NCBI GenBank assembly: GCA_949295125.1
Contig: CASFJV010000032.1
Coordinates: 1-50,989 of the forward strand
Reading direction: 5' to 3'
DNA length: 50,989 nucleotides
Source of the DNA: an uncultured Spirochaetales bacterium
Lineage (GTDB): Bacteria > Spirochaetota > Spirochaetia > Sphaerochaetales > Sphaerochaetaceae
Position 1 is the first letter of the stretch. Every line of letters starts with the position of its first letter. Positions 25,650-34,129 of the stretch are shown piece by piece. Below the pieces are notes generated by a model that was not told where the DNA came from, ran no database searches, and saw nothing but the letters and a program-made list of their open reading frames with translations. A program made the translations under genes and the position numbers.

Positions 25650-26699
25650 ATGAAATTCAGGAAGTTAATAGTATCTTTTGTAATATCTATAATCACGCTG
25701 TCAGCATTCGCAGCTCCTCTTGGAGGAGGCAGCACTCTTGTTGGAGCACCTGCTGCAACTGTCAACCTCATAAGGAACAGGGCAATCACGCAGAATGAAC
25801 TTGATGCAAGAGTTAAGGAATACCAGGATGCTGGTGCAAACGTAACAGAAGAGCAGGTTCTTGATATCATGATCAATGATGAGGTCTTCCTGCAGGGTGC
25901 TGAGCGTGATGGAATAGAGATTACTGACCAGATGCTTGACCAGGCAATGGCACAGCAGAGGGCAAGCATTGAGCAGCAGGTTGGACAGAGCCTTACTGAT
26001 GAGCAGTATGAGCAGATTGTGCTTAGCCAGACAGGAATGAGCTATTCTGACTATAGGGAAAGTGCTAGGGAGCAGCTTCTTGTAAACCAGTACCTCCTTC
26101 AGCAGAAGGGTGATGAGATACAGAACAGCCTCAATTCCCTTCAGATAAGCGACAGCGAAATCGATACTTTCTACAGGAGGAACAGGCAGAGCTTCTACAG
26201 CCCTGAGAATGTGAGGCTCGCACATATCTTCATTCCTCTAAGCGATAATGCAGATGAGAATGAGGCAAATGCCGCACTTCTTATAGATGTTGCTGAGCAG
26301 ATCAGGAATGGCTCACTTACATTTGAGGCTGCAGTTCAGCAGTACAGCCAGGATGAAAGCAAGAGCATCGGAGGGGATATCGGATGGCTCACACTTGATA
26401 ACCAAACTGCAAGAGCTGGGCTCGGGGATGCTTTTGTCGATACTGTTGTAGCTATGAATGCGGGTGAGATTTCTGGAATGCTTGAGTCAAATCTCGGTTA
26501 CCATATAGTGAAAGTAAGTGTCCATAATGACGGCAGGATCCTTGAGCTTGATGACAGGATCAGTCCGGAAGACACTATGACTGTCAGGGATTATATCAGG
26601 CAGGTTCTTGCACAGAATGAGGCAAACACTGTCATGGCAAATTCCCTGAATGACCTGATCTCAGAACTCAGGAGCCAGGCAAGGATCAGGATATACTAG
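25650..26699 (+). CDS. Periplasmic peptidyl-prolyl isomerase (SurA/PrsA-like parvulin)
   Basis: 349 aa with a signal peptide (IVSFVISIITLSAFAAP) and no lipobox Cys, so soluble periplasmic. Residues about 35-170 are a SurA-type helical chaperone domain (ITQNELDARVKEYQ; VLDIMINDEVFLQGAERDGI). A single parvulin domain covers about 185-290 (VRLAHIFIPLSD, FEAAVQQYSQDESKSIGGDIGWL, GMLESNLGYHIVKV). SurA-type proteins escort outer-membrane proteins to BamA, which is also encoded in this window. A strong AAAGGAGG site precedes ATG 25650. Its stop codon lies inside the left arm of the structured element that follows. Confidence 0.85.
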   Translation: MKFRKLIVSFVISIITLSAFAAPLGGGSTLVGAPAATVNLIRNRAITQNELDARVKEYQDAGANVTEEQVLDIMINDEVFLQGAERDGIEITDQMLDQAMAQQRASIEQQVGQSLTDEQYEQIVLSQTGMSYSDYRESAREQLLVNQYLLQQKGDEIQNSLNSLQISDSEIDTFYRRNRQSFYSPENVRLAHIFIPLSDNADENEANAALLIDVAEQIRNGSLTFEAAVQQYSQDESKSIGGDIGWLTLDNQTARAGLGDAFVDTVVAMNAGEISGMLESNLGYHIVKVSVHNDGRILELDDRISPEDTMTVRDYIRQVLAQNEANTVMANSLNDLISELRSQARIRIY

Positions 26700-26952
26700 C
26701 AATTTGCTGGGCAGGCTTAAGCTTTATTCCCTGCTGACAGCAGGGAAATGTGCCATGCTTTAATGACGAATGCTTGACTTTGCCGTTATGCCTGGCACTT
26801 TGAATAGAACTCCCAGAAAGCAAGCCGGCTGGCAATGGCATGCAGGGCCAATGACTCCTGCACGGAGGAGGCTAAAAGGGCAATATCCGTGCGCTTAGAG
26901 GGCAGAGGACTATTTTAGCTCTTGCCTTTTATTATTCTTGCAGCAAATTGCT
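26698..26952 (+). ncRNA. Unassigned structured intergenic element between the PPIase gene and nusB
   Basis: A 255-base region without a supported gene. Its ends pair perfectly over 12 bases: AGCAATTTGCTG (26698-26709) with CAGCAAATTGCT (26941-26952). Inside, GGCAGG (26710-26715) pairs with CTTGCC (26921-26926). Further helices: TTCCCTGCTG/CAGCAGGGAA (26727-26747), GTGCCA (26750-26755) with TGGCAC (26793-26798) extended by ATGACG/CGTTAT, TGCAGG/CCTGCA (26841-26862) and GCACGGA/TCCGTGC (26860-26892). The last two share three bases and cannot both form. GCTAAAA (26871-26877) could also pair with TTTTAGC. The helices are directly visible; whether this is an RNA gene, a nusB leader or a small non-autonomous mobile element is open. 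Confidence 0.5.
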
Positions 26953-26975
26953 GTAAGTATCCTAGTGGAGAAGTT

Positions 26976-27401
26976 ATGAATACAGGTAGAAGTTTAGCCC
27001 GTCAGATTGCAGTTCAGGCCTTATACAGCCTGGATTTCAATAATGAACTTGAAAGTGATGTTGACCTGAGCGTATTTCCTGGAATGACAGAAGAGGAGAT
27101 GGCGGATCTTGGTGAGGATGTCGTTCTTTTTGCCCGCTACCTAATCCAGGGGGTAAGGGAGAATCTGGAGCATCTTGACAAGCTGATTGCCACATACAGC
27201 ATCAACAGGCCTCTTGAGAAGATAGATTATGTTGACAGGAACATCCTCCGCATATCCTTCTTCCAGATTGAAAACCTAAAGGATACGCATCCGACTATCA
27301 TCATTGACCAGGCAGTAAAGCTCAGCCAGAGCCTCTCAAATGACGTTTCCTACCGTTTCATAAACGGAATACTTGATACGTTTGTAAAGGATTTCAACTG
27401 A
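26976..27401 (+). CDS. nusB: Transcription antitermination factor NusB
   Basis: 141 aa all-helical RNA-binding protein that joins NusE (S10) on boxA RNA for rRNA antitermination. Family pattern: N-terminal SLARQIAVQALYSLDF with the Arg-rich first helix, then INRPLEKIDYVDRNILRISFFQI and TIIIDQAVKLSQSLSNDVSYRFINGILD. ATG 26976 is chosen because GTGGAGAAG precedes it and it gives the usual N-terminus; an in-frame extension to 26922 would run into the structured element. It is followed by map after one base. Confidence 0.95.
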   Translation: MNTGRSLARQIAVQALYSLDFNNELESDVDLSVFPGMTEEEMADLGEDVVLFARYLIQGVRENLEHLDKLIATYSINRPLEKIDYVDRNILRISFFQIENLKDTHPTIIIDQAVKLSQSLSNDVSYRFINGILDTFVKDFN

Positions 27402-33762: not shown

Positions 33763-34126
33763 GGGGGCGTTTTGGTTTCGACTTGCTTTACCAGGTCGGA
33801 GACTGCGGGCCAAGAGCTGACTTGTAAAACCGGCACAAAAAAATAACTGCAAAGAAAGAAGAAGACGACAACGTCGAAACTCTTGCATTTGCTGCTTAAT
33901 TAACGCAGCATGGCTTTTCCAGATGCCGCTCTGAAGCTGGATAAAGCCATCACAAAACAGGGCTTGCCTTCTAATCTGTGTCCGTTTGGAAGGGACGCTT
34001 AGGATACTACTTCATGCCAACGCTTGTGATGCGGCCTAGGCTTGGAGGAAATAAGAAGCATTACTAGGCCTCGTAGACGTTTTCGGATGGACTGTTAGGA
34101 CGGGAGTTCGAGTCTCCCCGCCTCCA
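33763..34126 (+). ncRNA. ssrA: Transfer-messenger RNA (tmRNA, SsrA)
   Basis: Rescues stalled ribosomes by adding a degradation tag. The acceptor stem GGGGGCG (33763-33769) pairs with CGCCTCC (34119-34125), with one G-T pair, and the discriminator A follows; CCA is not encoded. The 5' TTGGTTTCGAC motif, the T-arm GGGAG-TTCGAGT-CTCCC and a tag frame at 33849-33899 (GCA to TAA) are all present. The tag reads AKKEEDDNVETLAFAA. The length, 364 bases, is normal. Its partner SmpB is encoded convergently just downstream. Confidence 0.96.
33849..33899 (+). other. tmRNA tag reading frame
   Basis: Resume codon GCA at 33849 (preceded by ATAACT), 16 sense codons and TAA at 33897-33899. The encoded tag is AKKEEDDNVETLAFAA. 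The C-terminal FAA keeps the hydrophobic-Ala-Ala type of ClpXP degron; the front half is unusually charged (two Lys, two Glu, two Asp). Confidence 0.9.
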
Positions 34127-34129
34127 TAA

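Follow-up and report, generated by a model that had tools for sequence, protein, structure and literature searches.

Why does a structured spacer stand between a peptidyl-prolyl isomerase (PPIase) gene and nusB? The question arises in the window, by which we mean the whole stretch of 50,989 nucleotides analysed from an uncultured Spirochaetales bacterium. A first-pass annotation had described a 255-base structured element here, running from 26698 to 26952 with paired ends. It had offered three identities: a new stable RNA, a leader controlling nusB-map, or a short non-autonomous mobile element. We find that the 255-base structure is the visible portion of a protein-less relative, about 276 bases long, of an IscB-carrying jumping gene. 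Very probably it is a non-autonomous, PATE-like element of the IS200/IS605 type, derived within the genus from IscB/HEARO elements, that went into the PPIase-nusB junction precisely ahead of the ATGA with which nusB begins. What was a puzzling structured spacer can thus be read as an insertion for which the empty site is known. The features to which we refer are the following:

25650 to 26699, + strand: SurA/PPIC-type peptidyl-prolyl isomerase gene, the upstream neighbour, with its stop codon TAG at 26697-26699
26697 to 26709, + strand: left-end near-palindrome TAGCAATTTGCTG, whose core is that of the right-end hairpin (11 of 13 bases identical)
26699 to 26975, + strand: the whole inserted element, filling a PPIase-nusB gap of 276 bp against -4 to +6 bp in 29 relatives
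26710 to 26847, + strand: 5' half, with no HEARO match, no second copy and folding not above shuffles
26855 to 26892, + strand: H-type pseudoknot, CTCC (26855-26858) with GGAG (26867-26870), crossed by GCACGGA (26860-26866) with TCCGTGC (26886-26892)
26900 to 26926, + strand: hairpin GGGCAGAG...CTCTTGCC, with equivalents in the L002, L054 and G008 copies, all ending CTTGCC
26937 to 26957, + strand: terminal hairpin CTTGCAG-CAAATTG-CTGTAAG, which covaries and has weak matches at the ends of IS605 and IscB elements
26958 to 26975, + strand: terminal segment TATCCTAGTGGAGAAGTT, aligning with TTTCCTCAAAGAGGATTTT directly before ATGA in the G008 copies
26976 to 26979, + strand: ATGA target flank, which is host DNA, the first bases of nusB
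26976 to 27401, + strand: nusB (PF01029), the element sitting before its start codon at 26976

The insertion is read from relatives that lack it. In all 29 related loci of the same genus the PPIase gene adjoins or overlaps nusB (gap -4 to +6 bp), whereas 276 bp separate the two in the window. The joined site of the relatives, for example GGATTTACTGATGAATACGGG, is matched by the window flanks AGGATCAGGATATACTA and ATGAATACAGG. Empty sites read TACTGATGAATAC, and a clean one would be TACTR followed, across the junction, by ATGAATAC. The element stands directly before ATGA and no bases are duplicated, that is, there is no target-site duplication. Gap and flanks together place the end of the extra DNA at 26975, directly before the nusB ATG, and not at 26952 as first annotated. 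The left edge can be set at 26699 to within two bases, since the gene and the element may share the stop codon TAG. A new stable RNA kept at this site finds no support in the comparison: the structured DNA is missing from the PPIase-nusB junction in all 29 relatives, and its homologues are found in other places.

Between 26699 and 26975 there are only chance open reading frames, of 51 and 42 amino acids, and no transposase. We found no promoter or terminator in the element. Its G+C content is 47.8% against 44.4% for the window, in line with the GC-richness noted at first. The genome-wide search for copies that had been proposed returned no second copy of this exact variant in the assembly, which is 82.6% complete.

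Several identities could be set aside. As the first-pass annotation had supposed, the element does not match tmRNA, RNase P, SRP or 6S RNA; the Rfam covariance search gave no match at gathering score to these or to any other family there, and permissive thresholds brought up chance matches only. The sole Rfam match in the whole window is the tmRNA that had been placed elsewhere in it (RF00023, 156.6 bits, 33763-34129, + strand). HEARO RNA (RF02033) was rejected as an identity after no covariance match at E up to 10 appeared within 26600-27050, and an IscB element was rejected because the window holds no IscB gene. DNA searches of phage and plasmid records gave no match, and a pattern scan of viral contigs gave none; the pattern scan of genome contigs found the G033 source and six matches in unrelated taxa. 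We dismissed a 26-bp match in G375, from a class-wide search of 395 genomes, as chance, since its surroundings do not match.

Folded as a whole stretch, the element reaches a z of -3.37 on the + strand (0 of 200 shuffles as good) and -2.73 on the - strand. The excess sits in the 3' half (26848-26979, z -3.28), and the 5' half (26710-26847) folds no better than shuffles (z -1.01). The perfect 12-base pairing of the two ends, AGCAATTTGCTG (26698-26709) with CAGCAAATTGCT (26941-26952), is as first described, and it exceeds what random ends give: in 20,000 draws of two 25-nt ends with matching composition, the longest pairing was 11. Both ends are near-palindromes sharing one core (11 of 13 bases identical as a direct repeat). 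The 12-bp inverted pairing exists because these two palindromes have a near-identical core, and the palindromes also compete with it. End palindromes with a common core are known in some IS605-type elements (PMC3119063). Of the three identities first offered, the short mobile element is the one that finds support, through 29 empty sites, homologues dispersed in other gene contexts and an end that recurs in IscB/HEARO elements and, less clearly, in those of IS605. Inverted-repeat ends were not the right argument for it, because IS605-type elements are defined by subterminal hairpins.

Where does the element come from? Its 3' half (26848-26975) shares homology with the 3' ends of elements of transposon origin that are scattered through the same genus; one of the relatives is Candidatus Ornithospirochaeta stercoripullorum. 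Several of these dispersed relatives carry HEARO RNA (RF02033, the IscB guide RNA), and the intact ones carry iscB as well. Blastn against 100 relatives gave one clear match, in G033, with 76% identity over 90 bp (window 26848-26937). This homologue lies between two other genes, and HEARO RNA (RF02033, 87.7 bits, above the Rfam threshold) is found directly 5' of the shared part. R1, a covariance model built from the 3' module, recovered the window together with seven strong copies in G008 and four in G033, at different genes. Weaker R1 matches in other genomes fall on the ends of IS605-type tnpA elements and on IscB right ends; each match to a tnpA end is weak by itself (E about 0.006 to 0.5 per genome). 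The tnpA element ends consist of a hairpin, TCCTGCAGGACAAGCCTGGCAGG, and then GTTTTC...TTTATAA. Profiles identified the proteins tested as TnpB (NF040570), IS200-type transposase (NF033573) and IscB (NF040563).

HEARO copies are scattered over 12 of 48 genomes of the genus; the genome that holds the window has five copies and G008 has nine, and some copies are followed by an intact iscB. Besides intact IscB and HEARO copies, the window's own genome encodes TnpA (PF01797). The intact IscB lies at G000:C1:4848-5756 (L072; NF040563, 339.6 bits), with HEARO at G000:C1:5903-6134; further HEARO copies in G000 are on C43, C56, C2 and C61. L134 (G000:C2:38763-38994 and downstream) is a HEARO element whose iscB appears to have lost its interior, so that only its two terminal portions remain, joined to each other. 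Seven near-identical, iscB-less right ends of the HEARO type occur in G008 (contigs C2, C3, C19, C27, C65, C71 and C73), and all but one stop at ATGA. The true copy number in G008 is probably higher, because many copies sit at contig ends.

Shorter forms are graded: HEARO is intact in G008, reduced to its first hairpins in G033:C1 and almost gone in G033:C25 and G001:C4. These HEARO-poor forms in G033 and G001 also precede the ATGA of reading frames. Nearly all elements with a readable 3' end (24 of 25) adjoin an ATG, mostly one that opens a long reading frame. By eye, the genes downstream are rsfS-, ppk- and ABC-permease-like genes, and nusB. L180 (G033:C25:26200-27600; about 690-868 of the reverse complement) is an element of about 170 bp between ppx-like and ppk-like genes, and its left end (GTCAAGAATCTGC...) apparently encodes the last residues of the upstream gene.

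Structure is conserved along with sequence in this 3' module. An alignment of the window element with L002, L054 and the G008 copies shows one stem throughout, written GCACGGA/TCCGTGC or GTGCAGA/TCTGCAC. The terminal hairpin reads CTTGCAG/CTGTAAG, CTTACAG/CTGTAAG or CTCGCAG/CTGTGAG, and a short tail then leads into ATGA. Terminal hairpin and pseudoknot covary, with all 126 counted cells paired and four pairs changed on both sides, the independent events being few because the G008 rows are near-identical copies. None of 500 shuffles reached the covariation score of the module. For the pseudoknot, covariation extends over iscB-less elements and iscB leaders alike. The inner helices named in the first-pass annotation fared unequally. 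GCACGGA/TCCGTGC is conserved with compensatory changes. TGCAGG/CCTGCA is present here too, and an equivalent (TGCTG/CAGCA) can be drawn in L002 but none in L042 or the G008 copies, and the alternative pairing of GCTAAAA with TTTTAGC is absent from the homologue L002. Hence a switch between mutually exclusive helices is not supported.

The pseudoknot leads to the origin of the module. Four iscB leaders (L069, L071, L072 and L075) have the same layout between HEARO and iscB, and one of the four belongs to the IscB element of the window's own genome. Helix 1 is CCC/GGG or CGGC/GCCG in these leaders and helix 2 is GCGTATA/TATACGC or GCGGAAA/TTTCCGC, the changes being compensatory in both. For this pairing count the rows were divided by hand and each was confirmed to be present in its source; automatic alignment misaligned the helices. 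A pseudoknot common to the window element and to iscB leaders ties the element to IscB/HEARO elements and not to any resident RNA. In these leaders it occupies the gap that separates the RF02033 match from the iscB start codon, which the Rfam model does not cover. In L067, L068, L070, L074 and L076, further IscB leaders of the genus, two simple hairpins take its place. Being kept both in iscB leaders and in iscB-less copies, this pseudoknot 3' of HEARO is a candidate part of the IscB RNA or a candidate control of iscB.

How could such an element have moved? HEARO elements, in a description from 2009, reportedly insert beside ATGA or GTGA. IsrB, a relative of IscB, accepts NTGA/ATGA as target-adjacent motif (PMC9581776), and IS605-type elements insert next to a fixed tetra- or pentanucleotide and carry hairpins at both ends (PMC7290912). 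By analogy with IS605 biology, TnpA acting in trans would move these elements as single-stranded DNA by binding their end hairpins. The terminal hairpin at 26937-26957 is likely an imperfect palindrome of this TnpA-binding kind. The insertion target would be the complement of ATGA, so that this strand shows ATGA (or ATAA in the case of tnpA elements). Where a relative is autonomous, IscB and its guide RNA would then cut the empty site, whose adjacent motif would be the same ATGA, and in this way retain the element. The RNA structures that we see would be an inherited iscB-leader pseudoknot together with transposon-end hairpins. The window element was probably once mobilised in trans by TnpA, and the present copy is probably immobile.

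Because ATGA commonly begins genes, an element with this target would separate a gene from the ribosome-binding site upstream of it. At its right end the window element has a Shine-Dalgarno-like GGAG at 26967-26970, 5 nt before the nusB ATG, where the G008 copies have AGAGGA. Judged by its position, GGAG may serve nusB as ribosome-binding site; brought in with the right end, it means that nusB should still be translated. This suggests how IscB-type elements tolerate insertion at start codons. The idea can be extended to mobile leaders that seek start codons, in which ATGA targeting and an own ribosome-binding site would control the downstream gene and the pseudoknot would become regulatory after the loss of iscB and HEARO. 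We regard this extension as speculative and rather unlikely.

The insertion may also have been co-opted at nusB itself, so that the Shine-Dalgarno hairpin now sets nusB translation or the transcript acts as a small RNA. The right end does recurrently put a Shine-Dalgarno-like site before the downstream start codon, and the 3' half has kept a covarying structure. However, the constraints of transposition and of the iscB leader already explain that structure, and there is a single copy at nusB. We therefore consider co-option unlikely.

For the left half of the element (26699-26847), Rfam, DNA and profile searches revealed no relation to HEARO or to any other copy. Neither a profile of HEARO elements nor the tnpB-side ends of IS605 elements match the 5' half; the former is a weak negative, as the profile failed to recover the established 3' homology as well. 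The left terminus GTCAACGACC with a hairpin starts IS605 elements of the tnpB kind, and HEARO elements have the same left end. The family terminus GTCAA(C/G)..ACC is present in relatives and missing from the window element. Missing HEARO and missing GTCAA together point to a copy that is probably decayed or chimeric, and on the sequence the most economical view is probably that of a core-deleted or chimeric copy. Could the 5' half instead encode a novel structured RNA that stands alone, or a cryptic non-HEARO guide RNA? Where relatives have HEARO, it does hold some 140 nt of unique sequence able to form stable hairpins. Yet the 5' half does not out-fold its shuffles, and no relative was found by Rfam, DNA or profile search, which makes this very unlikely.

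Also very unlikely is a resident cis-acting leader, an attenuator or riboswitch controlling nusB-map: it would suit a well-structured segment directly before nusB, with a Shine-Dalgarno-like site 5 nt from the ATG and mutually exclusive pairings, but it is missing before nusB in all 29 other loci of the genus inspected, its homologues precede unrelated genes, the proposed switch pairings are not conserved and no promoter- or terminator-like site is present. Conservation gives the nusB-map leader or switch first suggested no support, though the element now forms the 5' flank of nusB.

The inserted element can be placed among known systems. PATEs are IS605-derived elements that consist of ends only, described in Haloquadratum walsbyi and Halanaerobium (PMC3119063, PMC7290912). 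Like them it is short (one example in Halanaerobium has 271 nt), has no coding capacity and no target duplication, and has its core deleted. Its near-terminal palindromes are likewise IS605-related, the right-end hairpin corresponding strongly to IscB/HEARO copies and weakly to IS605 tnpA ends. The conserved oligonucleotide that PATEs have at both ends is found at the right end; the left end lacks GTCAA, which makes it a decayed or truncated end or one of a different subtype. Since three PATE features are present and the conserved left terminus is not, we call the element PATE-like and not a full member. PATEs are described without terminal inverted repeats, and the 12-bp inverted pairing that can be drawn here comes from its two near-identical palindromes. 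IS605-type tnpA/tnpB elements of the same genus have a similar terminal hairpin followed by GTTTYC...TTTATRA, but they encode TnpA and TnpB and their flank is ATAA instead of ATGA. IscB/HEARO elements (omega RNA; RF02033, NF040563) differ from the window element, in which the covariance model detects no HEARO and which lacks iscB. They share with it the right end, the HEARO-iscB pseudoknot and the ATGA flank, and intact members occur in the same genome. What is unusual in the window element, and sets it apart from PATEs, is that it retains the iscB-leader pseudoknot as its core and that it adjoins a start codon, before which it places a Shine-Dalgarno-like ribosome-binding site.
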